This document shows positions 1,930 to 44,640 of a stretch of 64,000 nt of DNA, one piece after another. How positions within the stretch are numbered: the stretch's first letter is position 1; the number at the start of each line of letters is the position of its first letter. Below the pieces are notes generated by a model. That model ran no database searches, had not been told where the DNA came from, and worked only from the letters and a program-made list of their open reading frames with translations. This DNA is from Harmothoe impar (lineage: Eukaryota; Annelida; Polychaeta; Phyllodocida; Polynoidae), in contig OX381716.1 in NCBI GenBank assembly GCA_947462335.1, forward strand, positions 10,674,861 through 10,738,860. The letters are read 5' to 3'. A program made the position numbers and the translations under genes.

Positions 1930-1946
1930 GCGCCTAGGCGTTCAGG

Positions 1947-3316: not shown

Positions 3317-3345
3317 AGACAAGACGGCGGTACTTGGCGTATCGT

Positions 3346-3798: not shown

Positions 3799-3995
3799 CG
3801 GGTTGTTGCGATGGCGGCCGTTTCATGGAGGCAAAGATTCTCTGCCTTGCCGAAATGGTGTTGGATTTATCCAAAGTCGTGCAATGTCTATTGGAGAGAA
3901 GTCGTCCGGGGTGTGGTGGTGCGAGTGACGGCGGCGTGAGACTTTGCGGCCTGTTGAGTTGCTGCAAATCGAAGAAGCAAGCTAAAAAAGCATAA
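3696..3995 (+). CDS. Possible small ORF with Cys-Cys-Lys-rich tail
   Basis: A 99-residue frame overlaps the end of the protease gene in another frame and runs to 3995. An inner ATG at 3824 would give a 57-residue protein beginning after the protease stop. The C-terminus (CGLLSCCKSKKQAKKA) looks like a palmitoylation site next to a polybasic stretch, i.e. a membrane-anchoring tail, preceded by a leucine-rich helix (ILCLAEMVLDLSKVVQCLLE). I do not recognise a family. The evidence for expression is weak: position between protease and polyadenylation signals, and a plausible short protein. It could be a chance frame. Confidence 0.3.
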   Translation: MSNKKPQEVRHAHEQNPKAERPGRESEAIDDAVVTGCCDGGRFMEAKILCLAEMVLDLSKVVQCLLERSRPGCGGASDGGVRLCGLLSCCKSKKQAKKA

Positions 3996-4023
3996 ACTTG
4001 TGTGTTTTTCTGATTGAAATGAA

Positions 4024-4036
4024 AATAAAGAATAAA
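4024..4036 (+). terminator. Polyadenylation signals of Polinton 1 late genes
   Basis: Two AATAAA hexamers (4024-4029 and 4031-4036) directly follow the last + strand frame and precede a T-rich stretch, a usual 3' end for the capsid/protease transcripts. Confidence 0.5.
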
Positions 4037-4084
4037 ATGAAAAGAAAAGAAATTATCTTGTTGTGTTTTTATTTCTATATATAA

Positions 4085-4496
4085 GTTACATAACTTTTTT
4101 TTGTTTGTTTGTTTACAAACAGTCACGTGTCACGTGGTGTTGTTTACAAACAAGAGAGCCACGTGGTGTTGTTTACAAACAAACCCTAAGTAGGTCACGT
4201 TACCCTAGTTACCAGAATGCCGGCTTCTGATTGGCTGAGCCTAAGTAGGTCACGTGACGTAAGTAGGTCACGTTACCATGGTTACCAGAATGCCGGCCTC
4301 TGATTGGCTGAGAGCTTCTAAGTAGGTCAGTAGGTCACCCAGAATGCTGGCTTCTGATTGGCTGAGAGCCCTAAGTAGGTCACGTTACCATGGCAACGGG
4401 TCACGTGACCAAATGGAGGCCTCTGATTGGCTGCATGTCGATTGAGTAATAAACAGTAGTTAACTTTAGTCCCGTTCCGATACATACTATACTACT
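4085..4496 (+). repeat. Terminal inverted repeat region of Polinton 1 (right end)
   Basis: The outer ~100 bp match the Polinton 2 termini with few differences and end in ...CATACTATACTACT. Inward there are tandem blocks: two copies of CACGTGGTGTTGTTTACAAA, then repeats of AAGTAGGTCACGT, CCAGAATGC and CTGATTGGCTGA. The blocks contain E-box (CACGTG), inverted CCAAT (ATTGG) and forkhead-like (TGTTTACA) words, so the terminus probably acts as promoter/enhancer as well as replication and integration end. The left partner is outside the window. Confidence 0.8.
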
Positions 4497-4700
4497 CACG
4501 AGATATTCCCAAATATTGTGAACGCGTCCCATTCACAAAATGAACTCGGGATTTAACGTTCATGAATGACACAAGTTAAAACGTGTTCAAAAAACGTGTT
4601 CAAAAAACTCGTTCAAAAAAACAAGAAATTCCCGACAATAGGCCACAAAAGGTTTACAAAACGTTCAAAAATCTCCTGGGGATCACGAGTCAAGACCCAA
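4497..4700. repeat. MITE fragment (CCCTCCAAAC family) that received Polinton 1
   Basis: The sequence right of the Polinton end (CACGAGATATTCCC..., then ...TGACACAAGTTAAAAC, TTCAAAAAAC) matches the inner half of the MITEs at 42832-43087 and 63000-63267. Polinton 1 therefore inserted into a pre-existing copy of this family. Confidence 0.6.
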
Positions 4701-16300: not shown

Positions 16301-17529
16301 GCCTCCATAGCACTTTTTTTAGCCATGGGTAACCGACGGTAGGGGATTCTACTGGGAAGCGCGTCCCCAGTGTCAACCCGGTGTTGTACCGTATTGGTAC
16401 GCCCTAGAGGATCTCCTGGTTGCGCAAAGGCGTCAGATAACTCCGACAGCTCATTTGCCACCATTTCGCTCTCTAGGGTTGTGAGGTGTGACTCACACAA
16501 CAGGGACCTTAAATGTTTCGGTAGGTTGGATTTAGCTAGAGCCTCTTTGTGGGAAGAGTCTCCCGCCACCACACCTACTTCCACAAAGTCCGTAGTTAGT
16601 GAGTCTACCCCATATGCTCGCGTGGTGTTACCAATAGGCATCCCCTTTCGTAGAGTGATTTCTCTACTACTCGAGTTACAAATCGGTATCACCCCCCAAC
16701 GAGCGTTGGCCAGGTAAGTATGATAGCCAGCAAGACCTAACTCAGAGAGCTTTTGATCTTCTGGTTCAAACATTCCCGGCCGTTTGGCCTGCACTCCCAC
16801 GCAGCTGACTAGGACATCGGATACATGTCCTGCTGCCAACTTTGTGTCTTGTGCCACTGATGCCACAGAAGAACCATTCCTTAAAACGCACTGTACAGAT
16901 TGTTTATAAGGATGTTTAATCTGAAGTCGGCCTGTTGCGGTGTTCATTGTTACCCCGTAAAGAGCAGCAAAGTCCATCCCCAGTATGCCATCATCAGTGA
17001 TGTCGGTGATGGTTGGACATATCCAGTATGTCTTGCCATCGACCAACATAGGTTTTACAGTTCTGCCATAAGTCTGCATACTATCTCCCGTAGCAGTCCG
17101 AGGCTTTACTCCTAGTAGCGGAGCTTCGGGCTGGTTGCAAAGACGGGCCATGAATTTACGATCGACCAAGGTGTGGGATGCACCCGTGTCGACCAAAAAT
17201 TCACCACGCGTCCCGGAAATAACCAGACTCAGGTACCAACGCTGTCCCCGTAAAGGGACACACTCAGAGGTCAGCATCGGGCTTCCCCCTCCATCCATAG
17301 CAACCCCTTTTGTCAGGAGATAATCCCAACACGGGTCGCTCGGGGAGTCTTGAATCACACTGCTCTGGGCAATCGATTCTAACCAAGACTCCTCTAAGCC
17401 AGCGACTACAGAATCCTCCGGATTCCGTTCGTCCTTGCCAGCCCCGCCTTGCCAGACGCTTACAGGTTGTACAGACCCTTCTGCCTCTGCGCGGCCTTGG
17501 TTCATGGAAGAGTTAACACCGTCTACCAA
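13366..17529 (-). CDS. pol: Gypsy Pol polyprotein (PR-RT-RNase H-IN)
   Basis: About 1387 residues with all enzymes intact: aspartic protease FLVDTGASHTLV (~D114); reverse transcriptase with LDLQSGYWQI and YLDDIIVFG (~544-551); RNase H beginning FILDTDASN (~D695); integrase zinc motif HFGR...CPQCC (~939-972) and catalytic D1001, D1061 (HSDQGREFES) and E1097 (SDGMVERFNRTL); GPY/F-like DGPHTV near the C-terminus. No chromodomain is seen. The frame lies -1 to Gag and stays open upstream of 17529 (the first in-frame codon there is not ATG) back across the Gag stop, so Pol is probably made by -1 frameshifting as Gag-Pol. It copies the element's RNA and integrates the cDNA. No inactivating change is visible. 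Confidence 0.95.
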   Translation of the reverse strand: MVDGVNSSMNQGRAEAEGSVQPVSVWQGGAGKDERNPEDSVVAGLEESWLESIAQSSVIQDSPSDPCWDYLLTKGVAMDGGGSPMLTSECVPLRGQRWYLSLVISGTRGEFLVDTGASHTLVDRKFMARLCNQPEAPLLGVKPRTATGDSMQTYGRTVKPMLVDGKTYWICPTITDITDDGILGMDFAALYGVTMNTATGRLQIKHPYKQSVQCVLRNGSSVASVAQDTKLAAGHVSDVLVSCVGVQAKRPGMFEPEDQKLSELGLAGYHTYLANARWGVIPICNSSSREITLRKGMPIGNTTRAYGVDSLTTDFVEVGVVAGDSSHKEALAKSNLPKHLRSLLCESHLTTLESEMVANELSELSDAFAQPGDPLGRTNTVQHRVDTGDALPSRIPYRRLPMAKKSAMEAEVEKMLDEDVIQPSESPWSSPVVMVTKKDGSCRFCIDYRKLNGLTRKNAYPLPRIDECVESLGGAKWFCTLDLQSGYWQIGMDPRDREKTAFSTHMGLFEFNVMPFGLCNAPATFEAMMETMLRGLLWKKCLVYLDDIIVFGGSVEETLQNLQAVLKRILSYGLKLKPSKCKLFRKSVEYLGRIVSEHGIMADPHKIEVVQNWPRPMDTKEIRSFIGFCSYYRDFIPGFSRVAAPLQELMIGEKKAKAKIVWSPAAEQSFSELKRLFLETPVLHYPAPVGKFILDTDASNTSIGAALSQIQDGREVPLAFSSNSLSKTQRNYCTTKRELLAVVVYTKKYRHFLYGGNYLVRTDHSSLQWLLNFKDAEGMMGRWLNHLSEFGMTNEHIIHRSGVDHVNADSLSRYPIRNCHRVDCRDCGSHNAVIASVGAKVPNWTLNHLKDEQLADPAISRVYSLKLLGLSKPVRPALSLECKEVRQLLAQWDNLFIRNSVLCRWRVQPGRKRTAQSVVPLSLRLQLLNYCHGHRTSAHFGRQRTEAKIKSRYYWPGMTLDIRRWVKQCPQCCLSKPGPGIGKLPLSQELFGVRFARIAVDIISGFNTTPRGNTCMMVVQDYYTKYVQVYPLVNHTAVTCAEALFENWILTWGGPLMLHSDQGREFESRLWAELCSKIHICKTHTNPYRPQSDGMVERFNRTLIQCLTTMVNEHRDDWDEHARYISHAYNATEHASTGCTPNMLVMGEDIVMPSDMVYGVQGHQLEQPCMLMFVESLRQSLRESYGVVRDNLEKSASLQKVGYDTGLKLRQFKVGDKVARFSTPNSKVKTLYSWDGPHTVTMVVSETTVVIRLQKGTLTKSHVARLRPWYGVPYIDDGEDSLGAGRVPAPTDPALPKIPKAGPTVIPSVPTVARRRGRPRKLPIEPQSCVTKPKRCRPRKKGSAVRKGLTIDTGKQSKVIPPVSPLLDIPVQGLRRITRVRERDKIV

Positions 17530-17588
17530 TCCCTTACAGGCATGGCTAACTGTGGGGGCGCCATCCTTGCCAAGAGGATGGGCCCCAT

Positions 17589-18500
17589 TCAGTTTTCCGT
17601 CTCCTTTTCGGTTTTAGCAGCGACGGGTGCAGGGGCTTTGCATTCGCTAGCCCAATGACCCATCTTTTGACAGCGTCTACATGGCTGAGGTTTCGTGTCC
17701 TTTTTCTTCTTTTTCCTTCTCTTTCCAGATCCAGAATCAGAAGTGGACGCAGAGCTCTTTTCTAAGTGCTTCCGCAACAAACCCTCAATCATCTTTTCCA
17801 TGTCCCTGTCAGGCATTACTGCCGCCACCTCCTCGGAGGCGGGCTGTTTCTTCTTAGGTGGTTTTGTGGCGGCCTCTACCACCTGAGCTCCTTTCGGGGC
17901 CACAGATGGAGCTGCCGACACTCCTCCACTAGGAAAAACAGCCTGTTTGGTGTCATACACATCTGCATGGTCAAAAAGGTCAGCTAGAGATAAGTCCGGC
18001 TGCCATTTCTCCCGCAGATATGCCTGGAGATTGGTGTCCCTGACTCCATTGACAAACCTGGAGGTTAACTCCTGGATGACAGTGGGGGTGTCAGGTCTAC
18101 ATCCCTGATAACACTCGGATATCAGTTCCTGTAGAGCAAATCCGTAGGATCTCAGATGCTCGTCCTTGCGTTGGACACGTTTGAGTAGCTGAGTCCTTGG
18201 GTCATGCTCACCAATCTTCCCAATCGCCCATTCAGCTGTTTCTTCAAGTGAGCTCAATGTCTTGATCTTCACTCTCTCGAACGCCAAAAGGGCTGGTTCA
18301 CCTGGCCCGTTGCAGAGTGCCTGCTTCAGAGCAACCAGCGCTTGCTGATTGTTCCAGCGATTGCTCTCCACAATAGCCTTGAACCGAACTTTGTACTTTC
18401 TCCAGGGTGGCGACCCTGTGAAAGGCGGAATATCGATGGCCTTTTGACGGGCTGCATCAGGATGTTTGATCTCCCAAAATTGAAAGGAGCATACCGTTCA
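17589..18500 (-). CDS. gag: Gypsy Gag, capsid and nucleocapsid part
   Basis: This frame has no ATG of its own. It opens at about 18500, carries IPPFTGSPPWRKYKVRFKAI and WNNQQALVALKQAL (capsid-like helices of Ty3 Gag), the stretch LLKRVQRKDEHLRSYGFALQ and FVNGVRDTNLQAYLR typical of retrotransposon gag, and a CCHC zinc knuckle CRRCQKMGHWASEC near the C-terminus after a Lys-rich linker. It is the direct continuation, shifted by -1, of the N-terminal part (18326-19741). It packages element RNA into virus-like particles. Confidence 0.85.
17592..17598 (-). promoter_or_regulatory. Candidate -1 frameshift site at the Gag/Pol junction
   Basis: On the - strand GGAAAAC directly precedes the Gag TGA (17589-17591), and the Pol frame is -1 relative to Gag. 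The P-site/A-site codons GAA AAC can re-pair as GGA AAA, similar in form to the known G-GAU-UUA type site. It is not a perfect X-XXY-YYZ heptamer. Confidence 0.4.
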
Positions 18501-19741
18501 TCCAGTTCATCGATGTCCCGCGGGACGATGTCTGTCCCCAGCTTCTCAATAGCCGGGTTCCGGTCATACTTAGCCCGCTGGACAGGAGTTAAGCCCTGTC
18601 TAGCTCTGGGTTTCGGTACTGGAACTGAGACCATGGTCTGCTGTTGGTTCAACATCGTTGAACCAGTAGATGGGTGGGTGTACCCTGGAGGTGTTGCCGT
18701 GCCTCCAAAGGCGCCACCACAGACCGGAGTCTGTAGATAGCTAGCCCCCATCTGAGGTGTCATACCTGTTACCGTGATGTGTACTAGCGGCGGGACACTT
18801 GAAGGTGTCACTGTCGTGTACACACTGGGTGCGGGTATGACTGGAGGTACCACCGTGGTAGGTGGTGGTACTTGCTCCGACTTCGTCTTCAGGTCCTGAT
18901 TGACTTGCCTTAAGCTTGCGAGGTCTTGTCTGGCTAAGTGGAGCTGCGTGCTCAAATCCTTTCCCAAGGAAGTTAAGCTTGCAACCTCACATTCGCCAGA
19001 CACCCTCTGGTGCAAAAGTTTGTCAACCTCCACCTTGTGGGAAGCCATCTCGTTCTGGAGTTCCAGTAGGAACTTTTTCTTCTCATCAACCTCCCTTAGG
19101 AATAACTTCCTAGTTTGATTGATGGAAGCAAGTTCCCTCCGGGCTTCCGCGAGCTCATGCAACTCAGTTTTCCTGGTGGGGATACCCATGGCAGCTAGTA
19201 GGTCCCCATCCAGTGGTAAACTGGATGGCTCATCTACTGCTGGCGGGTACCCCTTACCAGGAGCTTCTGTTGCCACATTAGTCTTCTTTGATAGCCCGCC
19301 ACCCCCCATACCGTTCGGTGTAGGAGTGGCACCATCAGTGAAAACCGACGTGTCTGGATCCAATGAAGGATCTGCTACCGTCGGTGTAGAACCGAAGGCA
19401 GCTGGGCCGAGAGTTTTAGGCTCTCTACCCGGTATTTTCTGACCCTCAGGACAGAAAAGATTCGTGGAAAGGGAGTCCAACGATCTCCTGGAGCTTATAT
19501 CAAAGGGTCCCGGGATTGGAGATTGCTCCCCATCCTCTCCTTTGGTAAAGGCTTCCACAATAGGATCACCTATTGCTTCTTGGGAGAGGTCGTCACCGGG
19601 CACCTCCAAGGCTGCCCGGCTCTCCCGCCTATTGGATTTGCCTGTGAAGAAGCGTACATTCTGTACGGCTTCTTCACGTTCTTCAGCAGGGGTTTTAGTC
19701 CTGCCGCTGAACGAGCTGACAAAATCGTATAGGTAATCCAT
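18326..19741 (-). CDS. gag: Gypsy Gag, N-terminal coiled-coil part (separate frame)
   Basis: Starts at ATG 19741, 62 bp after the 5' LTR. 471 residues as an open frame, but the last ~50 look like an out-of-frame tail: the capsid homology continues in the -1 frame from about 18480-18500. The convincing part has a Ser/Pro-rich beginning, a long heptad-like helix (HELAEARRELASINQTRKLF ... LTSLGKDLSTQLHLARQDLA, ~195-290) and a Pro/Thr-rich linker. A long coiled-coil leader is not standard in Ty3 Gag. The shift may be an inactivating single-base change or a second frameshift; I see no canonical slippery heptamer. Confidence 0.7.
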   Translation of the reverse strand: MDYLYDFVSSFSGRTKTPAEEREEAVQNVRFFTGKSNRRESRAALEVPGDDLSQEAIGDPIVEAFTKGEDGEQSPIPGPFDISSRRSLDSLSTNLFCPEGQKIPGREPKTLGPAAFGSTPTVADPSLDPDTSVFTDGATPTPNGMGGGGLSKKTNVATEAPGKGYPPAVDEPSSLPLDGDLLAAMGIPTRKTELHELAEARRELASINQTRKLFLREVDEKKKFLLELQNEMASHKVEVDKLLHQRVSGECEVASLTSLGKDLSTQLHLARQDLASLRQVNQDLKTKSEQVPPPTTVVPPVIPAPSVYTTVTPSSVPPLVHITVTGMTPQMGASYLQTPVCGGAFGGTATPPGYTHPSTGSTMLNQQQTMVSVPVPKPRARQGLTPVQRAKYDRNPAIEKLGTDIVPRDIDELDERYAPFNFGRSNILMQPVKRPSIFRLSQGRHPGESTKFGSRLLWRAIAGTISKRWLL

Positions 19742-22732: not shown

Positions 22733-22738
22733 GATGTC

Positions 22739-23290
22739 AGTAGTATAGTATGTATCGGAACGGAACTATAGTTAACTACTGTTTATTACTCAATCGACAT
22801 GCAGCCAATCAGAGGCCTCCATTTGGTCACGTGACCGGAAGTGACCTACTAAGGGGATTAGTGGTGCATTCTGGGTAACCCTGCAGCCAATCAGAGGCCA
22901 CCATTTGGTCACGTGACCGGAAGTGACCTACTTAGGGGATTAGTGGTGCATTCTGGGTAACCTACTGACCTACTTAGGGGACCGGAAGTGACGTCATATG
23001 ACCTAATTTAGGATCACGTGACCGGAAGTGACCTGATGAGTCACGTGAGCGGAAGTGACATCACATGACCTAATGGCCGACCGGAAGTGAGTGACCTCAT
23101 TGAGGATCACGTGACCGGAAGTGACCTGATTGATCACGTGAGCGGAAGAAGAAGTTTTTTGTTTAGGAAGTGAGGGTCTTTAGGATCACGTGACTGGAAG
23201 CGACGTCGTCACATGAGTGACGCTTTAAGAGACTGCGCGACTTACTAGTAAAAGAAGACGTATGAAAATAAAAACACAACAATATTTTAT
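22739..23290 (+). repeat. Left terminal inverted repeat of Polinton 2
   Basis: The first ~130 bp match the inverted right end closely. Further in are tandem variants of GGTCACGTGACCGGAAGTGA and GGGGATTAGTGGTGCATTCT. Matching with the right end resumes at CTTTAAGAG and GAAGACGTATGAAAATAAAA (about 23220-23275), giving a TIR of roughly 550 bp here against ~1.1 kb on the right, where microsatellite and C-rich insertions intervene. Confidence 0.85.
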
Positions 23291-23312
23291 TTTATTTTTT
23301 TTATTTATTTTT
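23285..23312 (-). terminator. Polyadenylation region of the polymerase gene
   Basis: On the - strand several AATAAA-type words (complement ATTTTATTTTATTT and TTTATTTATT) follow about 60 bp after the polymerase stop. Confidence 0.4.
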
Positions 23313-23372
23313 TTTTCAATCTTGATAAACACTCTATTTTTGAAAAGATGCACACGCTTATTTTTTTTTTTT

Positions 23373-26300
23373 TCATATCTCTAAAGGACTCGTTGTCACA
23401 CCGTCAGAATGCACGCGACGCTTATAATACAAGTAGCGCACGCCGTCTTTCTCTATGGTGTAGGTGACCATTTTGTTTCGCACCACTTTGAAGTTTCTAT
23501 TTACAGCAATGAGAGTTTTTCGTTGGCGAAGAACATCCAAGAAGTCGTCTGGTTCCTGAGGGTTTTGTTTCTTCTGTACGCCTTTTGCACTCCATTTTTT
23601 GGATTTTCTTTCACCGGTGTCGCTGACTCGATCGTAGCAAATGTAAGTCTTAGGGTTGAGACTTAGGATCCCGTCACCTTCCCACTCCGCTTTCATAAGC
23701 CCCGAAGTTCTCAGATCGTGAAGGTACCGTCTCTCACAACATCCGCCGGGCGGCGGACACCATTCTCGCACTCTTTCCGTTTTTGTCTTCACGAGAAGCT
23801 CTAAGTGATCGTCGCACACCGCTGTCGGAAGCCACTTTCGTTTCTCTCTGAAGTACGTCTCTCTCAGGCGAGGTTTGACTAGGTCATCCAACGTGTCACC
23901 GCTGAGAGCCATGTAAAGACTGTCGGTGTCCATTTGACAAAGGGCATAATCGTGCCGATCGACGAATCTATCCAAGAAGTCGTATGTGAACTCTAACATT
24001 TTCAACTTCACGTACTGGTATACCATGAACCCTATTTGAATAGGGAGGTTGTTGTTGACTGTTTTCGGTTGTAGTTCGACTTCAAACAGATCGGAACTCA
24101 ACTCGGACGCCTTTTTGAAGCGCCACGAATTGGCCAATAGTTCGAACTTCCGACTGTCAGTGTATCTCACCGCCGTGTGTTTTTCTTTGTTGCAGATTGT
24201 TTTACCGTACGTAGCGTTTCCCATTAACTTGTAACAGTCTGACAGAATTTTCTCGTTCTCGTTCACGTCGCCACGTCTTCGCGCCGCCGTTACTTCGTCC
24301 GCGAAACCGGCAAAGGAGCGTTTAGGTAGGTATTCTACCACCAGCTGCACTTTGGTGACTATCAAACCGTGCTCTAAATACCACTTGAGAAGCGGCGTTC
24401 CCAAGAGAATATTTTTTCCGTGGTAACTCCCTATCAGACATCTCTGAGGCGTGTTCAACAGCTTTTCTTCCTGCGCAAAGTCTGACATGTGAGGTCCTAT
24501 GTCCGATTTTGAAACGGTCGCGTTCTTGAAAACGGGGGTCATTTCTTCGAAGTAGTCTCGTAGGTGAGGCGGCGTAGTGATGTCCACTTGAACTAAACCG
24601 AACATTTTCTCCTCTTTCACAGCGGAAAGGATGTCGCTCTCGCTCATCGCGTTTCGAGACACTTTCAAAGCGTCAACCTTCCAGCGTTGTTGGGAGGCCT
24701 TGACCCGCTCATCTCGACGCTTCATCTCTCGCCATTCGCACTCCCACACGACGACCAGCTTGTGACCTAGCGCTTTCAAATAAGCGCTTACTCTGGTCGT
24801 TCTGTCGCGTCTCTCCTCTCTCAGTGAAGCGCACTGATATCGGTGCGACGGTATGCACTCGTGAGCGTGGAACCAACACCCGTGAAACTGGAAAACCGTA
24901 TTAGAGGCCGCGTGAAACCCGTCCACGCGAATTCTCCGACAGCCTACAACCATCTCGCCGCCGTTCAAAGCGTGGCGCAGTTTCACGTCGCGGTCGTGCT
25001 CTACGAAGCGTAACCACTCCAAAGCGCTGTGAGAGTTTCTTTGCCTAATTTCGGGCTTGAACTCGGTCTCGGGCCGTCTCACCGCGTAATAGCCCGTGCA
25101 GTGCGCTTCGCTCATGCAGCGCAAGTACAGAGAGTTAGCGTCTAGTCCTAGGATGTGTTGGCACGGTCTCGCTTCTTCGCCGTACTTGTGCTCCCTTATC
25201 CGCGTGGTGCCCTTCTCGTGAAATCTATGGAAGATGATGGAAGGACCGCCGACTAGATTTTCTTTGATCAGAGCGTGGAGGACGGCGTCGAACTGGGGGA
25301 ACGTTGTGAACGCGTCTTCTAGGTTTTGGAAGAGGAACCGTAAAGTCAAACCGGCGAGAGAAACTCCGTCTTTCAACATGTCAATGCCGCGATCTTGGAA
25401 AAATTTAGCGTGATTTTTCAGAGCTTCCATGAAAGGTTTGACGTCTTTGTTGTTGTAGTGGATCAAGTAGTCTTCCATAGTTTGCATCTTCTCGTCGGAC
25501 CAAACTTTCTGACATGCGGCGTAGTCGGATTCGGACATTTTGACGCCCGTCAGCTCGCTGTCGAAAGCCGATCTCGGTGGCAGCGTTCTGTTTGCCAGTT
25601 TCCTGGTAGACGTCATCCATTCGTAAGGAAAGTGACCTTTCTCTTCGTTCCTGGTGAAAGCTCGCAAATAGGTCGCGTAGTTGTAACCGGGTGCCAAATA
25701 GTTGACTACGTCCAAGAAAACCGTGTGCTGTGTGTAAACCGCCAAGTATTGATTGCTTCTCTTTATGACGCTGAATTCTTGGTTTCTTCGGTCTCCGGAG
25801 GCGAAGAACGAGTGAAGGCGTATTTTGATCAGGTTCAAGTCGTAACGCCCCGAGTTGAAGCCCACGACTGGAGCTTGCCGGATGTATCTCAGAAGACGCT
25901 TCTTCAGTTGAACTAACGGGTGTCTGGTCTGAGCCGCAGCGAAGCCGCCTGGAGAAGGGGTGAACGTCGCCTCCTCCAGCAGGAGAGCTTCACCTATCGC
26001 CGCATCTAACTTCGCTAAGGTCGGTCGGTAAAGTTCTAGCACAGCTTCCCCGATGACTTTGGCGTTCTCGTTTATGTGATTTAAAACTCGGTCCAACAAG
26101 GGGTCGGAATCTGCGTCGGATTCTCTGACGAAGCAGACGGGCCCCTCCCACCCCGGAAAGTTGGATGCGACGCTAGCCGACAAAGGGACGTGATCCCACA
26201 GCAGGGACACGTGTTCCGTCGACGGTTCTTTGCACGGTCTGAAGAAAGCCTCGAAATCGAAGGCGATCTTGTAAGGGTAGATTCCGGAATGTCCGTCGGG

Positions 26301-27464
26301 GGTAAAAATGGAGAAGTCTGCTAGCGCTTCGAAAATCGTTCTCGAATTTTGGTAGATGCCACCTACGTAGCGCAACTTGACTTGTCGGCAAGAGGAAAGC
26401 TGGTTCCTGTGTCTCTTCAGCAAGAACTCGGTGGTAAACGCCGCCTTACACTTGCAACATTCGTATATGCCCGCGTACGCGTTGAAGTCCGTGACGAGAG
26501 AGACGTGCAAACCGCCTTTCGCCGTCAGGTGTAGGTTGACTTTACCTCGGGCGGCCAGAGTTCTGGAAGGCGGTCTGATCAGAGTAACGCGTCTTCTCAA
26601 CTTCCGCCCCGGCACTTGACGCGACGCGGTGTAAACCTCTATCTGTACGTCAAACAAGTTCTCTAACGCGGGTAAGTCGCGGATGTTCAGACCCGGAAAG
26701 GATTCAGGTGTGGCAGCGGGACAGAACTGACGTAACAAATCTGAAGCGCGCTTGCTGGTGTTGTATAAGTGAAAGGAAATGCAGCGGAAGATGCAGAGGT
26801 TGTCCTTGTTGGGAAAATCTAACACGCCGCTTCTCTTTCCAACTCGACCGGCCTGAGTGATCCTACCGCCTATGGGGAATTCCCCCGGTCCCATGTAAAC
26901 GCAAATGTTCAAATTGGTAGGAAAAAGAACGTGCCACTTGGTGTCAGCGTCGCAAAGTTTCCGTACTTCCTCGCAAGCGACGGTGTTTTCCATCTTTGAG
27001 AGGAGCTCTTCCAAAGTTTCTGAATTAGTTATAGTAGGGAGCGGTTGTATGAGAGTTGCGTTGTTCTGGGAGGCGTGAAAGTAGCGCAGTTTGCTCTTGT
27101 CTTCTCTGTGTTGTAAGAGTAAGCCTACCGAGAAACCCACTTTGTATCTGAATCTTTGTGTCAAGTGAATGCGACGCATAGTATCTACAGCGTCACTCAA
27201 CTCGCCGGTTGGTAGCCTGAAGTTTGTTACACTCACGCGAGTCCCGTGCATCCTGACGCCCGTTTGTATCGCAGGCCAATTCGCCGTGAACGTTTCCTCC
27301 CCGTTCGGTACAGCACATATGCGCGGAGGGACGGTCACCCCGTCCAGAGATTCGCGTCGACAGGCGATCTTTCGGCAATCGCCTTCGCCGCATAGAGGGC
27401 AAAACTTAGGTACTACTCTACAATTTTCTACGTGTCTCTCGTGGTTGTACGGTCTTTTAAACAT
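23373..27464 (-). CDS. polB: Protein-primed family B DNA polymerase of Polinton 2
   Basis: 1363 residues, uninterrupted. Exonuclease motifs AFDFEAFF (~402-408, D403/E405), FNSGRYDLNL (~536-545) and YNNKDVKP (~670); polymerase motifs LGLDANSLYLR (~772-782), KLMGNATYGK (~1079-1088) and QMDTDSLYMAL (~1177-1187). Between the first two polymerase motifs lies the Polinton-typical block VDGF...NTVFQFHGCWFHAHEC. N-terminal additions are Cys/His knots (~10-35), an OTU-protease-like segment (DNLCIFRCISFH ~221-232, with LHVSLVTD ~319) and a C2H2-like finger (~337-359). It replicates the element from protein-primed ends. The first ATG (27464) cuts through a finger: the codons before it encode C-x2-C in frame (see findings), so the true start may be upstream or lost. 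Confidence 0.93.
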   Translation of the reverse strand: MFKRPYNHERHVENCRVVPKFCPLCGEGDCRKIACRRESLDGVTVPPRICAVPNGEETFTANWPAIQTGVRMHGTRVSVTNFRLPTGELSDAVDTMRRIHLTQRFRYKVGFSVGLLLQHREDKSKLRYFHASQNNATLIQPLPTITNSETLEELLSKMENTVACEEVRKLCDADTKWHVLFPTNLNICVYMGPGEFPIGGRITQAGRVGKRSGVLDFPNKDNLCIFRCISFHLYNTSKRASDLLRQFCPAATPESFPGLNIRDLPALENLFDVQIEVYTASRQVPGRKLRRRVTLIRPPSRTLAARGKVNLHLTAKGGLHVSLVTDFNAYAGIYECCKCKAAFTTEFLLKRHRNQLSSCRQVKLRYVGGIYQNSRTIFEALADFSIFTPDGHSGIYPYKIAFDFEAFFRPCKEPSTEHVSLLWDHVPLSASVASNFPGWEGPVCFVRESDADSDPLLDRVLNHINENAKVIGEAVLELYRPTLAKLDAAIGEALLLEEATFTPSPGGFAAAQTRHPLVQLKKRLLRYIRQAPVVGFNSGRYDLNLIKIRLHSFFASGDRRNQEFSVIKRSNQYLAVYTQHTVFLDVVNYLAPGYNYATYLRAFTRNEEKGHFPYEWMTSTRKLANRTLPPRSAFDSELTGVKMSESDYAACQKVWSDEKMQTMEDYLIHYNNKDVKPFMEALKNHAKFFQDRGIDMLKDGVSLAGLTLRFLFQNLEDAFTTFPQFDAVLHALIKENLVGGPSIIFHRFHEKGTTRIREHKYGEEARPCQHILGLDANSLYLRCMSEAHCTGYYAVRRPETEFKPEIRQRNSHSALEWLRFVEHDRDVKLRHALNGGEMVVGCRRIRVDGFHAASNTVFQFHGCWFHAHECIPSHRYQCASLREERRDRTTRVSAYLKALGHKLVVVWECEWREMKRRDERVKASQQRWKVDALKVSRNAMSESDILSAVKEEKMFGLVQVDITTPPHLRDYFEEMTPVFKNATVSKSDIGPHMSDFAQEEKLLNTPQRCLIGSYHGKNILLGTPLLKWYLEHGLIVTKVQLVVEYLPKRSFAGFADEVTAARRRGDVNENEKILSDCYKLMGNATYGKTICNKEKHTAVRYTDSRKFELLANSWRFKKASELSSDLFEVELQPKTVNNNLPIQIGFMVYQYVKLKMLEFTYDFLDRFVDRHDYALCQMDTDSLYMALSGDTLDDLVKPRLRETYFREKRKWLPTAVCDDHLELLVKTKTERVREWCPPPGGCCERRYLHDLRTSGLMKAEWEGDGILSLNPKTYICYDRVSDTGERKSKKWSAKGVQKKQNPQEPDDFLDVLRQRKTLIAVNRNFKVVRNKMVTYTIEKDGVRYLYYKRRVHSDGVTTSPLEI

Positions 27465-27658
27465 TTTGAAACACTTTTCGCATACGTAGTGTCATGTTTT
27501 TTTTCACTCAGTTACCAGCTACTTAGCCGTCTAACTATCTATCTATCTATTTATCTTTCTGTCTGCTGTCTGTGTATCCGTCTGTCTGTCTCATACAGCG
27601 TACGTCAAAACGCTGTGTGTGTGTGTGTGTGTGTGCGCGCGTGAGCGTTGAGCGTCTC
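27465..27658. other. Spacer between polymerase and PC4-like gene, with (TG)n
   Basis: Contains CTATCTATCTAT and a (TG) run at about 27612-27634. The interval is short, so both - strand genes could share a transcript or have separate ones; no clear TATA was found. Confidence 0.4.
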
Positions 27659-28788
27659 TCATTCCGAATCTATGCCGAGATATTTCAGAATGATCTCTGT
27701 TTTGTCATCCAACTCTTTGAGCGCTCTGGCGGACAGCGTCACTCCCTGCTGTGTGGGTTTTTTGTCAGGACCTTCGTACTTGCGCACGTGGACGAGGTTC
27801 TTACCGCTGTAGTAGCTCACAGCTGCGTACACTTCGCCCTCCTCATCCAGCACTGCGAACCAGGGGGTGTGATTAGGTTTTCCTTGCGTGGCCGCTGTGT
27901 CGCGTATGCGCACCACTGCGCGGATATCGGCGATGCATGCTATTAGCTCGCGCAGCGCGTCGGCCGTGAAGTGCACTCGCTTGCTTCTGGTCAGAGACGC
28001 CTCTTTCACCTGGCCGTCTTTTGTGTAGCGCGGCCTCCTAGACAGTCTAGCCACGTCCTCCCAGATCTCCAGCGTCAAAGCTCCGTCTAAGCAGAACTCT
28101 AACCCGAGAAGACGGGAGAAGGTTTTCTCTGCTTCTTCTCGTCCATCTCGTTCTTTTTCTTGTATTTTTCTCTTCTTACTAGGCCTTGTTGTTCTGGAAC
28201 TCACCTTAGAACGTTTCACACCCGCAGGATGAGTAACACCATCAGCGTGAGCTGAATCAGCAGCAGAACCGATAGCAGGAGCAGCGTCAGCGCTGGTGGT
28301 ATCCGAGGCCTCGTTGTTGGAACAGCGCAGCCACACGCCGTCGGTGCTGAGTGTAGCGGTAGAAGATGAAGCGCCGCCGCCCTCGTAAGGTGGCGGTGAG
28401 GGCAGTCGCCACGGACCAGACGGGACGCTACTAGTGGAGGAAGTGAGGTCGAAAGGTCGAAGAGGGAAGCCGAAAAACGTACCGCCCACCCCTTTCCCTT
28501 CGGGTTGTTCGTACGCCTCGTCGTCAGCGTCGTTCTCTGTCTCACCCTGTTGCTCCTCCTCCTCTTCTTCTCGGTTTAGGGGCTGAGTGTCCGAATAGCT
28601 GTCACTCTCAGCGCGAGCGGCGTCGAGGGCGTCGGTCGATGTAGTGGTGGAGGAGAGGGGCTGTGCAACGTGCGGCAGGTCATCAAAGTCATCAACAGTA
28701 GTGGGGAGGTAAAAACCCGGTTGCCAGTACTGCGCTGTGCCAGGAGCGTTGTCGTCAGTAGTAGTAGCGGTAGCAGCAGGTGCAGCAG

Positions 28789-28825
<37 letters not shown>

Positions 28826-29236
28826 CGCAACAGTAGCAGGCGCAGCAGCCTCAGCAGGCGCAGCAGTAGCAGGCGCAGCGGTAGCAGGTGCAGCAGCAGC
28901 AGCAGCAGCCGCAGCAGGCGGGGCGGCAGTAGCAGCGGCAGCGCGCTTAGCAGCAACGTGTACCGTCGCGAGTGTAACAACGTCGCTAGCACGACGACTA
29001 CTACCAGTAGTACTACTACTACTACTACTACTACTACTAGTACTACTACAACTACTACTACTGCTACTACTACTACTACTGCCGCGAGCGCTCGCTACAG
29101 CGGGAGGGTGATAAGACCAAGCGGCTGCGGCGGTAGTCTCATTTTCAGTAACAAGAGGAGGCACTGACGCTTAACGAGCGCTGTTCCGCGTAGTCTTCTT
29201 GTTCTTGGACGGCGCTAGGTGTTGTCTTTTGCTCAT
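27659..29236 (-). pseudogene. Polinton 2 basic/low-complexity protein with PC4-like C-terminus, one in-frame stop
   Basis: A strong start ACCACCATGA at 29236 opens a frame of 21 basic residues, meets TAA at 29171-29173, then continues in the same frame for 501 residues. The middle is repeat-driven (poly-Ser, long poly-Ala/Thr, acidic QQ/EE stretch) and includes a nuclear signal (RPSKKRKIQEKE). The last ~180 residues are globular. Its end, KNLVHVRKYEGPD..PTQQGVTLSARALKEL, follows the PC4/Sub1 ssDNA-binding pattern ('hIRkY....P...GitL....w.eL'), and a similar unit precedes it (VKEASLTRSKRVHFTADALRELI). I infer an ssDNA-binding replication partner for the polymerase gene next to it. The assignment to PC4 is tentative. 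The stop may be a lesion or read through. Confidence 0.6.
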
Positions 29237-29294
29237 GGTGGTGACTGTAGAGAGCAGCAAAAGAATGAGTGAGTGAATGGAGGTTTCCAGACCC

Positions 29295-29302
29295 CTTATA
29301 TA
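29295..29302 (-). promoter_or_regulatory. TATA box of the PC4-like gene
   Basis: TATATAAG on the - strand, 59 bp before the ATG at 29236, at the edge of a tandem-repeat promoter region. Confidence 0.55.
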
Positions 29303-29316
29303 TGCCTTCTCGCTTC

Positions 29317-29676
29317 TAGAGCTAAGCTACTTACTGACCCTGTTCAGCTGCCGCCGGCTGGCCGGCGGCCATTCACAAAGAGAAACAAAAGACATAAGGC
29401 ATGACGTTTTCAGCTGGATCCCTTTCCCCCCTTTTGAGAGATCGACTGTCATGAGCTAAGCCGCTTACCACCCTGTTCAGCAATTCAACGCGCATTAGCT
29501 GTATAAAGGATTAACCGGTTGCTGCCGTCGACTGACCGGCGGCCATTCACAAAGACATAAGGTATGACGTTTTCAGCTGGATCCCTTTTTTGAGGGATCC
29601 ACTGTCATGAGCTAAGCCACTTACCACCCTGTTCAGCCATTCAGCGCGCGTTAGCTGTATAAAGGATTAACGGTGA
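29317..29676. repeat. Tandem ~150-bp repeats in the divergent promoter of Polinton 2
   Basis: Two and a half units start AGCTAAGC(T/C)(A/G)CTTAC...CCCTGTTCAGC (29317, ~29454, ~29608). Shared blocks are CCATTCACAAAG, ATGACGTTTTCAGCTGGATC and GGATCCACTGTCATG; units 2 and 3 have GCTGTATAAAGGATTAA, a TATA-like word. They lie between the divergently transcribed PC4-like and death-domain genes and may be duplicated control regions or a replication/packaging site. Confidence 0.65.
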
Positions 29677-30170
29677 TGAGCTTAGAGTGTGTATACAAAA
29701 AAAAACTACAGGAGGCGTGTGGCGTGAAGCAGGACCCCCCTAAGACGAACGTGTCTGTCTGTGAGTAGAGGCGTGTGCATGTGGTGAGCGACTTAAGTGT
29801 AAGACAAAAAAAAAATCACCACCTCCTGCCGTGGTGAGTAGACCGAGCCGGCCAGGCGGCGGCGGCCGGCTAGTTCAATAGGGAGGGGTGACAGCTGACT
29901 AAGGCTGTGCATGAAAAAAATCCGATTTTCACCTGACCTCTGACGTTTGTTACAATGAATGTCAGAGGGAGGGAGACGTCCTCAGGTAGGGGGTAGGAGG
30001 TAAGGCTATGGATGAGGAAGAAACACCGTTTTCAGCTGGTCTCCACGGATAGCGATGACACACCCCTCGTCATCTAAGCTCTTAAGGAGCGGAGCGGTTG
30101 AAAAAAGCGTCATGCGGACAGGTCGCTACACAGCTGGAGTGCTGTTGGAAATGGGATTAAACTCCCTCTG
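29677..30170. other. Divergent intergenic region of Polinton 2
   Basis: No ORF. Includes GGCGGCGGCCGGC and a further TTTTCAGCTGGTC block (about 30029) related to the tandem repeats. Probably upstream control sequence of the death-domain gene. Confidence 0.4.
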
Positions 30171-30179
30171 TATAAAAAG
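30171..30179 (+). promoter_or_regulatory. TATA box of the death-domain gene
   Basis: TATAAAAAG lies 155 bp before the ATG at 30326; the leader between them is mostly a (CCG)n tract. Confidence 0.5.
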
Positions 30180-30235
30180 CTCTGATTTCTGTTGGAAAAA
30201 AACCATATCGCCTCTGACCACAGTAACGTCTACTA

Positions 30236-30241
30236 CCACCA

Positions 30242-30288
<47 letters not shown>

Positions 30289-30316
30289 GCCGCCGCCGCC
30301 GCCACCGCCGCCAAGA
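30236..30316. repeat. (CCG/CCA)n microsatellite in the leader of the death-domain gene
   Basis: About 80 bp of CCGCCGCC with CCA interruptions, just before the ATG. In one frame it reads as poly-Ala, in others as Arg or Pro; these are repeat artefacts. Confidence 0.85.
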
Positions 30317-30325
30317 CGAGACGAG

Positions 30326-31066
30326 ATGGCTCAAGCTATTCCACTTTCAAGCTCGCCTTCACCGCCTTGTCCACCTGAAAAAAAGTTAATGCGGCTTGAC
30401 GACGTGAGACGCGCGAGGCAGACCGATGGGGAGAACAGAGAGGTAGGACAGCGGCGGTTAGCCTATAGCGACGCCTTGCTTCGTCAACTAGGTAAAGAGT
30501 TGAGCGGCTGTTGGAGAGAGTTGGGCAGTAGCTTAAAAGTTACCGCCGCCCGTATGGATGCTCTAGTAGAGCGCAGTGTCAAGACACCGGAGGAGCTGTG
30601 TACGGCGATGTTCCGAGTCTGGTGGGGTGAAACCCCGCATCGTCATAGATGGGGAGAGCTCGGTCGCGTCTTCACCCGCATTAGACGCGTGGAACTGTTG
30701 GCTCAGTGGATGTCCCTTCTCCACAGACAGGGGTTGGATTTCAAAAACCCCGACTCGCGCGCGATGCATAAGCACTTGGGCACCCTCGGCAGACGTCTAG
30801 GTAGCAGGTGGAAAGAGGTGGGGGACCATTTAAAATTGTCGCCTGAGAGGTTAGATAAGATCGCTGAAGAATGCGAATACGGAGGAAGTCCCGCTGAGTG
30901 GGCCTTCCGAGTGTTGAAAATGTGGCAAGATGAAGCTGACGGTGCCGGCGGTACACCTTTTGAACTCCTTCGAGTGTTGACTGAGGACATGGGAAAGTTT
31001 GACCTCGGCATCGCGATATTACTTGACTTTATCAAGCAAGAAACAACGAGAACGACGGACATGTGA
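30326..31066 (+). CDS. Tandem death-domain protein of Polinton 2
   Basis: 246 residues from ATG 30326, the only + strand gene of the element, intact. After a Ser/Pro-rich start come two similar six-helix units. The first, ~49-127, has LGKELSGCWRELGSSLKVTA, then RMDALVERS, FRVWWGE and LGRVFTRIRRVELLAQWM. The second, ~146-235, has LGRRLGSRWKEVGDHLKLSP, then RLDKIAEEC, FRVLKMWQD and LLRVLTEDMGKFDLGIAIL. Each shows the death-fold pattern (L...L...W..LG..L.l....ld.i, a 'vl..W' helix, then 'L...L......d.a..l'). Death domains assemble complexes in apoptotic and Toll/NF-kB-type signalling, so a decoy or scaffold against host defence is a reasonable inference. No caspase, kinase or TIR domain is attached. 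It could instead be a captured host adaptor fragment. Confidence 0.75.
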   Translation: MAQAIPLSSSPSPPCPPEKKLMRLDDVRRARQTDGENREVGQRRLAYSDALLRQLGKELSGCWRELGSSLKVTAARMDALVERSVKTPEELCTAMFRVWWGETPHRHRWGELGRVFTRIRRVELLAQWMSLLHRQGLDFKNPDSRAMHKHLGTLGRRLGSRWKEVGDHLKLSPERLDKIAEECEYGGSPAEWAFRVLKMWQDEADGAGGTPFELLRVLTEDMGKFDLGIAILLDFIKQETTRTTDM

Positions 31067-31222
31067 ATTGTTGTGTTTTATTTTCATACGTCTTCTTTAT
31101 TAGTAAGTAAAAAAAAAAATATATATATCATAACAATTAAGACGCGCGCCCTCTTAAAGTGTCACTTCCTCCAGTCACAGCTGATCGCCTCATCGAAGCA
31201 CGTGATAAACAAAAAAAAACGA

Positions 31223-31264
31223 AGAGACACGCTTCTTCCTCTCGAGAGGAAGAAGCGTGTCTCT
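31223..31264. repeat. 42-bp perfect palindrome
   Basis: Half-site AGAGACACGCTTCTTCCTCTC followed directly by its reverse complement, with CTCGAG at the centre and no loop. It sits about 160 bp after the death-domain stop inside the right terminal region and is not found at the left end. Confidence 0.9.
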
Positions 31265-31318
31265 CGATTGAAATCTTTTTCTTTTCTTTTTTTCTTAAAA
31301 GAGACAAACGCCCCTTAG

Positions 31319-31472
31319 AGTGCCCCCCCACCCCCCTAGAGTGCCCCCCTCCCCCCTCCCCCCCTCCCCCCCACCACTCGCCCCATGCATCCTAAAAGCG
31401 CCCCCCTCCCCATGCATCTTAAAGGGGCCCCCCTCCCCTTCCCTCCCCTCCCCTCCCCTCCCCCCCCTTTAT
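31319..31472. repeat. C-rich tracts (G-quadruplex-prone on the - strand)
   Basis: Many runs of five to eight C separated by short A/T spacers (about 31323-31377 and 31432-31468), interrupted by CCATGCATC and TTAGAGTGCC repeats. The - strand could fold into G-quadruplexes. Confidence 0.75.
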
Positions 31473-31607
31473 ACACTCTAAAGAACGCTTCTACCTAGTT
31501 CAATAAGTCACTTCCAGTCGCTCGTAAAACAATAAAAAATGAAAAAAAAAAACAAACTTATATCGTAGTGTTTTTTATTAGTTTACCGAAAAAAATAAGA
31601 GACTCGC

Positions 31608-31755
31608 CTCCTTCTCCTCCTCCTCCTCCTCCTCCTCCTCCTCCTCCTCCTCCAAAAAAAAAGATATCACATTTTAAAGCGCGTGACCCCTTAAAGACGC
31701 TCATCTCTTCATTAAGTCGCGTGACGTCACTTCTTCTTCTTCTTCTTCTTCTTCC
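31608..31755. repeat. (TCC)n and (CTT)n microsatellites in the right TIR
   Basis: A pure TCC run (31608-31653) and a CTT run (31729-31755) separated by TTTTAAAGCGCGTGACCCC. The ORFs across them are repeat artefacts. Confidence 0.9.
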
Positions 31756-32160
31756 GGTCACGTGATCAATCAGGTCACTTCCGGTCACGTGATCCTCAAT
31801 CAAGTCACTCACTTCCGGTTGGCCATTAGGTCATGTGACGTCACTTCCGGTCACGTGACTCATCAGGTCACTTCCGGTCACGTGATCCTAAAGTAGGTCA
31901 TATGACGTCACTTCCGGTCCCCTAAGTAGGTCATATGACGTCACTTCCGGTCCATAAGTAGGTCATATGACCTCACTTCCGGTCACATGACCAAATGGCG
32001 GCCTCTGATTGGCTAACTAGGTCACGTGACCTCACCACTAATCCCCTAAGTAGGTCACTTCCGGTCACGTGACCAAATGGAGGCCTCTGATTGGCTGCAG
32101 GTCGATTGAGTAATAAACAGTACTTAACTATAGTCCCGTTCCGATACATACTATACTACT

Positions 32161-32335
32161 GATGTCCAAGGGGGTAAATGTCCTAGTGTGTAAAAGTTCT
32201 AGGGGGTAGATGTCCTAGGGGGTAGATGTCCAGGAGGTAAATGGCAGGGGGTAAATGTCCAGGGGTAGATGTCCAGGGGGGTAAATGGCAGGGGGTAGAT
32301 GTCCAGGGGATAGATGTCCAGGGGAGTACTCGTCC
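32161..32335. repeat. GGGGTAGATGTCC minisatellite (Polinton 2 target)
   Basis: About ten variants of GGGGGTAGATGTCCA or GGGGTAAATGTCC. The Polinton target duplication GATGTC is part of the unit. Confidence 0.85.
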
Positions 32336-42109: not shown

Positions 42110-44640
42110 TAGCAAGTTACTTACTTGGGCTGCATTCATACATCATGATGACCAGGGCATTATGCATTAAAGCAGTATCCAGCCTTTAAAGGGCTAAGTG
42201 TGGTGCATTGCTAAGTGGGTCTGGGCTAGGATCCGGACAGACATCCTGGGGCTCAGACACATGGGCCGTACAGATGTAGCGGTGGTCAGGGGGCTTTGTG
42301 GTCAGCAAGTCATTAGTAGTACAGCACCACACCCAGGGTTAGAAACGGACCATTACAGGGTATCCTCCATACATGGGTCTGGGTAGATTTTAAGCGGAGG
42401 ATCCATTAGTTGTATTGCTTGGGGGAAAGAGTAAGAGATAGACATAAGTTGGACAACTATGGAAGTTAACCATCAACTTCTTAAAACCTTTTCAAAAACT
42501 GGCTCTTTGATGTCAGACAAATGATGCCTGAAAATAGGTAAATTCCACTCACCTTTATCCACTGTATGCATGAATACCTCAAATAGACTTTTAGGGACCC
42601 TCTTCATCAGTCTTATTCTAATTGGCTGACCAAAATCCTGGCATGTATATTTTGTTGGCTCAAGTGAGCTGAAAGCTTATCCACTGTGAGTTCTAACATG
42701 AGAGTAGCTTGGAATAACACCTACATTGGTTGATATTACCTCAAAGTGCCATGCTAGCCAACAACTACTATGTGGGAATGTTTCTAGAAAATGTAGTTTT
42801 GCACCTTTGGTGATAGTGTCAATTGAAGATTCCCTCCAAACAGAACGTTCGCAACTGGGGAGATTCTGGGGAAGTCACCATAACACAAGAAAGACACGAG
42901 ATACTCCCAAGAATTGTGAATGTGTCCTATTCACAAAATGGACTTAGAAATTGAACGTTCGCGACTTTGACGAATGGCACAAGTTAAAACTTGTTCAAAA
43001 AACACATTAAAAAAAAAAAAAATTCCCTGGAATATGCCACAAAATGGGGATCACGACTCAAGAATGGCAGGAGCTCCACTTGCAGGGAATTTAATGCCCT
43101 CTTCTTATTAGAATTCACCTCTCTTTATATGTGTAATAAAAAAGAAGCATTATGTCAACTTATTAAAAAGGATGGGGATTTGGCCAGCTTAAATTGCTTT
43201 TACAGTGTTGGATGTTTTGACATTAATTTTAATCTCGGTTTAGGTGACAAATGATAATGAGGATTTTGGACATGTATGTACTTATATATGAGAACAACCT
43301 GCGTAAGAACCTCACCTGATATATGAGGTGGATTCTTTTATTTCAATCATATTCTAGTCAACAAAGTACTGTCCACAGCCAGGGCATACACAGAAATATC
43401 TAAGGGACTACCGGCATCCGTTTGGGGCCACATCAGCTTAACCCGGTAAGGATGAATGTTTTTAAGAGATGACATTGGTCGTCATGATGCCTTGGTGCAT
43501 CATACCGACCCTTCATGGGCGTATCAACCCAATAGGGTGGGCATGAAGCTTGAATGCGGCTCTAACGAGTTACTCACCAGTGCTGCATTCATACATCATG
43601 ACGACCAAGGCATGATGCATTAATGCTGTACTTAAAGGGTTAAACATCATAACTAGCCTATACAACAATACAATGATTCATCATGACAGCCTCCAGATGT
43701 CCTTTAGGGCCTCCCTATTGGAGATGCCTTCATTGGTCCAATGATAAACAGGATGTTGTAACCAGATTAAATCCTGCCAGGGTTTTATCCCCTGTCTGGA
43801 TGAATCCTTACAATGGGCTGCCAGTGAGCATCTTCATCTTCCTCCTAACCTGCTTCTAATTGACAGCTAACTAATGATATGCAGAGTTTGTTGGCTTCAA
43901 CCAAAAAGTCATTGTCTCACATTTAACCTGAAAGTGGCACTCTTGCTAATTACTAGTACCCACTTATTGTGGACCCTTGGGCCACTTTTGGCGTTCCCCC
44001 AATTTCCAACAATTTGAAATGGCTCGCCAATTAGCTACTTTGAATAATAAATGATGAAATTATTTTCATCAGTTCATTTATCGCTCTTTGTGTCTGTGTT
44101 TTTCTAAAGGATAGGGATTTAGGTAGATTCAATTCCTATAGCTTGTGTTGGTGCCGTCCTAGGGGACAGGCGGAAGAGGACAGGTGGGCAACCCTGTTGC
44201 TAGACAGAATGTGTGACACAGACAAAGGTGAGATTCACCTCCAATTCCTATAGCTTGAAGTAACATTGATAACTGCCCATTTCATAAAAACAAATAATGA
44301 AAATTCAATATCAGTCAGAGTCAACAGCAAAAGCCCAGCCATGCCACTGATGAAGCACATCTACATCTAGGGCATTTCACAACATCAATGAAGGTTTAAA
44401 ATCTAACAGCAGGCTAAACTGACCCAACTATACTGTATGCTGCTCTGTTCTGTTGTTAATTGCACATAGAAGTTAATGAGCAAGACTTGCCTAATAAGTC
44501 ACCATTTCTGGCACCGTGGATCTATAAAAGGGGAGCTTAGGGAGCCTGGTTGGTGTCCTTGGAGGCACTCCAGGATGAATAAGGCTTAGTGGGTGTGGCA
44601 CCCTAAGGACCAGACTGGTAGTTAGTTAACCCCTTTAAGA
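42110..44640. repeat. Large inverted repeat, arm A
   Basis: Reverse complement of most of 61035-63940. Matching landmarks: AGTGGGTCTGGGCTAGGATC (42210) with GATCCTAGCCCAGACCCACT (63822), the MITEs at 42832 and 63000, GATGAATGTTTTTAAGAGAT (43451) with its complement near 62614, and GAATAAGGCTTAGTGGGTGT (44577) with its complement near 61065. No coding frames of interest inside. The arms have diverged by substitutions and insertions. Confidence 0.8.
42832..43087. repeat. MITE, CCCTCCAAAC family (within arm A)
   Basis: CCCTCCAAACAGAACGTTCG ... TTGCAGGG; belongs to the sub-type with ACACAAGAAAGACACGAGAT and AATTCCCTGGAATATGCCAC, like 48187 and 63000. Confidence 0.7.

Follow-up and report, generated by a model that had tools for sequence, protein, structure and literature searches.

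Tandem death-domain gene in a Polinton-type element of Harmothoe impar that may be one half of a bipartite Polinton

We analysed a stretch of 64,000 nucleotides (the window) from the polynoid annelid Harmothoe impar (GenBank assembly GCA_947462335.1, contig OX381716.1, positions 10,674,861 to 10,738,860 of the forward strand), in which a gene for a protein with two predicted death domains lies inside an insertion with Polinton-type ends. This insertion, element A, spans 22739-32160 (9,422 bp), begins AGTAGT and ends ACTACT, and has inverted ends of about 416 nt that are 89% identical. It carries a DNA polymerase gene (PolB) and a second frame (ORF2) on the minus strand, and the death-domain gene on the plus strand. 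A second insertion with the same termini, element B, reaches into the left edge of the window and carries integrase, ATPase, protease and probable capsid genes (Table 1). Polintons, also called Mavericks, are thought to be integrated viruses, and to our knowledge little is known of how they meet the cell-death defences of animals. We put at even chances the reading that elements A and B are the two parts of a bipartite Polinton, with a death-domain decoy encoded on its replication segment.

An earlier reading of this DNA, made from the sequence only, had claimed an intact frame of two death-domain units with its own TATA box on the strand opposite the polymerase, and each part of this claim was borne out. 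The frame (30326-31066, plus strand) encodes 246 residues with no stop, the TATAAA lies at 30171, and the start codon context is Kozak-like. Over the whole protein, Pfam Death (PF00531) matched in two stretches at 31.1 bits (cut-off 22.6; E 2.7e-7) and was the sole Pfam family above cut-off. Scanned apart, the two halves again matched Death alone, at 18.1 and 18.6 bits, each below cut-off individually, and an alignment of one half against the other by hhalign indicated that they are related (probability 95.6, E 1.2e-8, 28% identity). Death was matched by all six members of the family (E up to 0.1), with P0003 (28.9 bits) and P0021 (33.5 bits) also passing the gathering score. When the family profile was compared with the Protein Data Bank (PDB), the top structures were RIPK1 (second half, E 0.0014) and FADD (first half, E 0.0026); TRADD, THOC1, ankyrin-2 and ankyrin-3 were also among the weak matches, and the 42 distinct sequences at E <1 included unrelated protoglobins and myoglobins at weaker scores. 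A search of PHROGs with the protein gave no match, and Pfam revealed no effector domain and no death-effector domain (DED) in it. AlphaFold models of the whole protein (from an alignment of four sequences; mean pLDDT 40.9) and of the second half (six alignment rows, one of them not overlapping it; mean pLDDT 62.3) were all-helical, and a Foldseek search with the low-confidence second-half model gave 31 matches, none of them significant and none a death fold. Since both models are of low confidence, we infer the death fold from the sequence profiles, which make it highly probable that both tandem units are death domains. As judged from its sequence, the protein is a tandem of two death domains with no other recognised domain.

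The remainder of element A includes PolB, whose above-threshold DNA_pol_B_2 match predicts a protein-primed polymerase. It could be aligned with 13 relatives at 37-98% identity; the start codon of the 98% relative is out of frame in the window copy. PolB also contains a segment resembling the Vsr mismatch endonuclease, with profile matches to three solved Vsr structures (E 3.8e-7 to 5.5e-7) and, in the relative P0011, a weak Pfam match below cut-off. In the window copy, ORF2 has an ATG leader at 29236 that runs into a stop 21 codons on. The same leader was present in 29 copies, the window's included, 26 of which show no stop over the roughly 250 codons read. Searching the PDB with the C-terminus of ORF2 led nowhere, as did Rfam, tRNA and viral_contigs scans. 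An inverted counterpart of the stretch that directly follows the death-domain stop codon lies downstream of PolB and links the gene with the end of the element, at the inner edge of the terminal repeat.

The sequence-only reading had taken the carrier of the gene for a complete Polinton with exact target duplications. As an insertion it is indeed complete: it has AGT-type inverted ends and a 6-bp duplication, GATGTC, on both sides. GATGTC-containing repeats around the insertion site make this single duplication weaker than it looks, and the point is settled by the other copies of the element, in which the duplications are exact in all 16 that could be closed. As a Polinton it is incomplete, and that part of the claim falls. 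When the integrase, ATPase, protease and probable capsid proteins of element B were compared with 22739-32160 they had no match there, nor did Pfam find any, so the core genes beyond PolB are absent from element A. Its genes are PolB, ORF2 and the death-domain gene only, the other core genes lying in the second element with the same termini.

To place the window copy among its relatives we searched the 1.51 Gb assembly. The death-domain protein gave at least 150 matches that are full length, free of stops and 100% identical (150 scored of 3,963 first-look candidates, which are not to be equated with copies). As this list was selected by protein score, we also assembled a second, independent set irrespective of the gene itself, using the sequence that precedes it to pick out 30 copies, one of them the window copy. 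The gene was found at all 30 of these loci, with ORF2 also present at 29, and its frame is intact in 28, one of the other two having a stop and one a one-base gap. Loss of the frame from all other copies is thereby ruled out, 27 of the 29 others being intact. The 29 ungapped copies differ by 0.33% on average in pairwise comparison, which points to a recent expansion of element A. We also retrieved the other end for 20 copies from the protein list. Sixteen of these could be closed, with lengths of 9,414-9,578 bp in 15 and of 10,312 bp in the remaining one; the left end of the other four lay outside the fetched stretch. PolB sequence was detected in 19 of the 20 left-end stretches, and in three further copies, on C3, C7 and C8, PolB and the death-domain gene are 2.7-2.9 kb apart, as in the window, all of which marks the gene as an integral part of the element. 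PolB itself is stop-free in 31 of 34 scored matches (of 7,549 first-look candidates).

The window copy of element B is 10,449 bp long and is flanked on both sides by CACGAG. Beyond the window edge it carries the integrase core (L030:6120-6860; rve, 51.2 bits) and an ATPase (Adeno_IVa2, 24.6 bits; cut-off 21), and PolB had no match in the copy as read (L030-L032 together with 1-4496). The two frames of the probable major capsid gene, searched apart, had no Pfam match, and the first was without a significant PDB match (best E 0.079). Between the left terminus and the ATPase lies a possible accessory frame (L030:2819-3535, 238 aa, TTG start, no Pfam match). We considered whether 1-4496 could be a fragment of element A and rejected this, since it belongs to a distinct insertion that has a target duplication of its own. 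The ATPase search gave at least 150 stop-free matches at 100% identity (150 scored of 2,516 candidates). Nine further copies of element B had their ends fetched; both ends were found in eight (10,498-10,537 bp), seven with exact duplications and one with different flanks. Counting the window's, the duplications are thus exact in eight of nine closed copies, and lengths fall within 10.45-10.54 kb.

Elements A and B have their termini in common. Over the first 98 bases the left ends of 17 copies of A and 11 of B have a mean identity of 99.2% between the two kinds (187 pairs), which is as close as the copies of element A are to one another (99.1%, 136 pairs); past about 100-130 bases, only scattered matches of 68-81% connect the ends of A with those of B. 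The Polinton core set is divided between the two without overlap, and this division, together with the common termini, is the pattern expected of a two-segment genome with a common replication and integration signal, the complementary gene sets on separate molecules being seen here in integrated copies only. On chromosomes C1-C5, where 67 death-domain copies and 139 ATPase copies are listed, a single one of the former lies within 12 kb of one of the latter. In this exceptional pair on C2 (95189507 and 95190012) the ends are 504 bases apart and the flanks differ, and a fused element at C2:95.18-95.20 Mb was rejected on these grounds. We consider it likely that the two elements depend on each other. 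Under such an arrangement the PolB of element A would replicate both from the common terminus, the integrase of element B would insert both, and the capsid of element B, with its ATPase and protease, would package both.

The same termini can be explained differently if element A is a satellite with its own PolB and death-domain gene that borrows integrase and capsid from a one-piece Polinton helper, element B then being a second deletion derivative of that helper. The shared ends would let a helper act on both, and most of the PolB and ATPase first-look candidates in the genome are unscored. We nevertheless regard a satellite as improbable, if the best placed of the alternatives: elements A and B together make up the core set with no overlap, the measured copies are near-uniform in length and the listed ones near-identical, the ends of A and B diverge beyond about 100 bases, unlike those of simple deletions from one parent, and no element on C1-C5 contains both one of the 67 listed death-domain copies and one of the 139 listed ATPase copies.

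Turning from the carrier to its cargo, a protein that consists of two interaction modules, with no other Pfam domain above cut-off, has the role of decoy as its simplest one. During replication, the tandem protein might bind host death-domain adaptors or receptors of FADD, RIPK1 or MyD88 type and, having no effector domain, might block the assembly of complexes for apoptosis or NF-kB signalling, steps that are less certain than those proposed for replication and packaging. The death domains of RIPK1, FADD and TRADD are weakly similar to it (E 0.001 or worse), and the Polinton protein is without their kinase, DED or other domains. Viral FLIPs, likewise virus-encoded, have death-fold domains in tandem and lack an effector; they carry death-effector domains, whereas in the Polinton protein Death alone passes the Pfam cut-off and DED has no match. 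A further death-fold-only viral protein, the CARD protein of a grouper iridovirus, is reported to inhibit apoptosis (PMC4457926), though with one CARD in 91 aa as against two death domains here. Whether the protein is a decoy, rather than an activator or a protein with no part in signalling, is in our judgement evenly balanced.

Death domains polymerise, and two in tandem could also seed an assembly, so that the protein might act instead as an activator or scaffold that nucleates death-domain complexes, for example in NF-kB signalling, in favour of host-cell survival or growth. A viral protein that activates such a pathway is known in ISKNV ORF111L, which is reported to bind TRADD and induce caspase-8 apoptosis, although it is a TRAF and not itself a death-domain protein. 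Given that no effector domain was found in the Polinton protein, and that the one death-fold-only viral protein compared, the grouper iridovirus CARD, is reported to be an inhibitor, we hold activation to be unlikely. We think it somewhat less likely again that the death domains serve the element itself, in replication or assembly, or some other non-apoptotic interaction such as those of THOC1 and the ankyrins. THOC1, ankyrin-2 and ankyrin-3 do occur among the weak PDB matches, and the gene is placed with replication genes; yet the best PDB matches are RIPK1 and FADD, and the gene has a TATA box and a strand of its own.

Constraint on the frame was assessed both within the genome and between relatives. 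Changes among copies within the genome look near neutral, as in decay after insertion. In a set chosen by protein score, which with the window's comprised 28 loci at 26 places, we counted 11 synonymous and 4 replacement changes, and we rejected this count as evidence of selection, since choosing in this way favours unchanged proteins. Database searches identified five homologues, P0002 (99% identical), P0003 (78%), P0004 (55%), P0021 (53%) and P0022 (53%, partial). Neutral substitution of the window gene was simulated in 2000 runs at each level of divergence; 67 of them retained an open frame at 78% identity and 7 did so at 55%. The replacements in P0003 have a mean BLOSUM62 score of -0.04, milder than the simulated neutral value of -0.60 (sd 0.22), and those in P0004 (-0.17) and P0021 (-0.21) are likewise milder than the corresponding -0.69 (sd 0.16), with P0022 (-0.51) hardly milder than neutral. 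As the simulation had no indels and an assumed substitution bias, and as the homologue search preferred open frames, the evidence for constraint on the frame between divergent relatives is moderate. That the frame is a functionless passenger, a host fragment captured once, is nonetheless very improbable. In its favour, within-genome changes are near neutral and one of the two measures in the simulation fails to separate the relatives from neutral drift; against it, relatives at 78%, 55% and 53% identity keep the frame open and conserved, their replacements are milder than neutral by mean score, and the gene is equipped with a TATA box and a Kozak-like start.

Taking these lines together, we give slightly better than even chances to a Polinton virus of double-stranded DNA (dsDNA) in two segments. 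The first, with PolB and an immune decoy of two death domains, would replicate, and the second would package and integrate both; the pair would have expanded recently to large copy number in this one genome, with divergent relatives here or elsewhere. Several observations weigh against the reading as a bipartite Polinton with a decoy. Measured against the window copy, the flank-picked copies show 10 synonymous changes, 24 replacements and 1 stop, where a replacement-to-synonymous ratio of 2.79 is expected. The share of replacements with positive BLOSUM62 scores (0.33, 0.33, 0.32 and 0.25) shows no excess over neutral (0.28, sd 0.06, and 0.25, sd 0.04), and the homologues sit on contigs of just 0.8-2.7 kb, so that P0003, P0004, P0021 and P0022 may be either from other genomes or from older copies in this one and any linkage to PolB is conjectural. 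The structure models are too poor to show a six-helix fold, the capsid labels in element B rest on gene order (compared with PMC8097293), and one of the nine closed element B copies has unequal flanks. Finally, with 34 of 7,549 PolB and 150 of 2,516 ATPase candidates scored, a one-piece Polinton with both modules may lie elsewhere in the genome. If Polintons can be split into two elements with common ends, this would show a route from a one-piece dsDNA virus to a multipartite one, and surveys that require PolB and integrase in one element would miss such viruses; at least 150 near-identical copies of the death-domain protein offer a direct handle on how Polintons contend with animal cell-death defence.

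Vertebrate Mavericks/Polintons (PMC8097293) have AGTAGT...ACTACT as their commonest reported end motif and share these ends, 6-bp target duplications and PolB with element A, and ATPase, integrase, protease and gene order with element B. Intact ones, however, measure 12.7-24.6 kb and hold both modules in one, whereas here the modules are divided between an element of 9.4 kb and one of 10.5 kb, and a death-domain gene comes in addition. In their distribution of genes, elements A and B resemble the bidnaviruses and Drosophila Vesanto virus (PMC8363768), which are PolB viruses with genes spread over two or more segments, many of the Vesanto segments having similar inverted ends. Those viruses are described in the same paper as single-stranded DNA viruses, and their added segments of 3.3-5.8 kb were found in sequencing reads, whereas elements A and B are known from integrated copies alone, of about 10 kb each, with an rve integrase and an adenovirus-type protease. 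In the open-licence literature searched we found no report of a death domain in a Polinton or Maverick and, among the titles and abstracts listed, no bipartite Polinton; a term search of PMC8097293 and of the preprint PMC11071296 found no mention of death or apoptosis. Literature searches on adintoviruses or Polintons together with apoptosis, and on virus-encoded death-domain decoys, led nowhere.

Table 1 Coordinates in the window of the features of elements A and B
Feature	Position	Strand	Basis or remark
Element A			
Target duplication GATGTC, left copy	22733-22738		
Left terminal inverted repeat	22739-23154	+	begins AGTAGT
Inverted shared stretch, PolB 3' side	23240-23283	-	93% over 44 columns with 31067-31108
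PolB, 1,363 aa, with Vsr-like endonuclease segment	23373-27464	-	DNA_pol_B_2 28.9 bits (cut-off 25.8)
ORF2 downstream of premature stop; low-complexity, PC4-like C-terminus	27659-29164	-	Pfam PC4 22.1 bits, below cut-off 25
TATA box of death-domain gene	30171-30176	+	TATAAA, 155 nt 5' of ATG
Tandem death-domain protein gene, 246 aa	30326-31066	+	intact frame; Pfam Death; homologues P0002, P0003, P0004, P0021, P0022
Predicted death domain 1, residues ~44-137	30455-30736	+	Pfam Death E 0.003, below cut-off alone; FADD death domain profile match E 0.0026
Predicted death domain 2, residues ~141-246	30746-31063	+	Pfam Death E 0.0021, below cut-off alone; RIPK1 death domain profile match E 0.0014
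Shared stretch right after death-domain stop codon	31067-31108	+	counterpart of 23240-23283
Right terminal inverted repeat	31745-32160	-	ends ACTACT
Target duplication GATGTC, right copy	32161-32166		
Element B			
Right part of element B	1-4496	+	shared terminus, exact duplication CACGAG; left end outside window at L030:909
Integrase, C-terminal part, chromodomain-like	3-395	+	Pfam Chromo 20.4 bits, below cut-off 25.1
Probable minor capsid protein	527-1492	+	gene order alone; no Pfam match
Probable PW-type protein	1504-1929	+	gene order alone; no Pfam match
Probable major capsid protein, one in-frame stop in window copy	2009-3316	+	gene order alone; two open frames, same phase
Adenovirus-type maturation protease	3346-3798	+	Peptidase_C5 23.1 bits (cut-off 21.3)
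Target duplication CACGAG, right copy	4497-4502		

Among the PolB relatives, the longest contigs of P0005, P0007, P0008 and P0011 are 9.6-10.1 kb, near the size of element A, and P0009, P0010, P0012 and P0013 are on contigs of 16.6-17.6 kb; the two size classes might correspond, in other genomes, to split elements and to one-piece ones. The sole match to PolB in genome_contigs, at 28% (L001:1915-3411), is in an assembly entered under a bacterium that lives as an endosymbiont in the tubeworm Escarpia laminata, and is probably contamination by host DNA. Elsewhere in the window, 42209-44635 and 61022-63847 form large inverted arms, pieces of which are 87-94% complementary, 16.4 kb apart and with no frame longer than 122 aa between them. 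At 13366-19741, the minus strand has a pol frame of 1,387 aa together with gag-like frames, which make up what we take to be a Ty3/gypsy-like retrotransposon.
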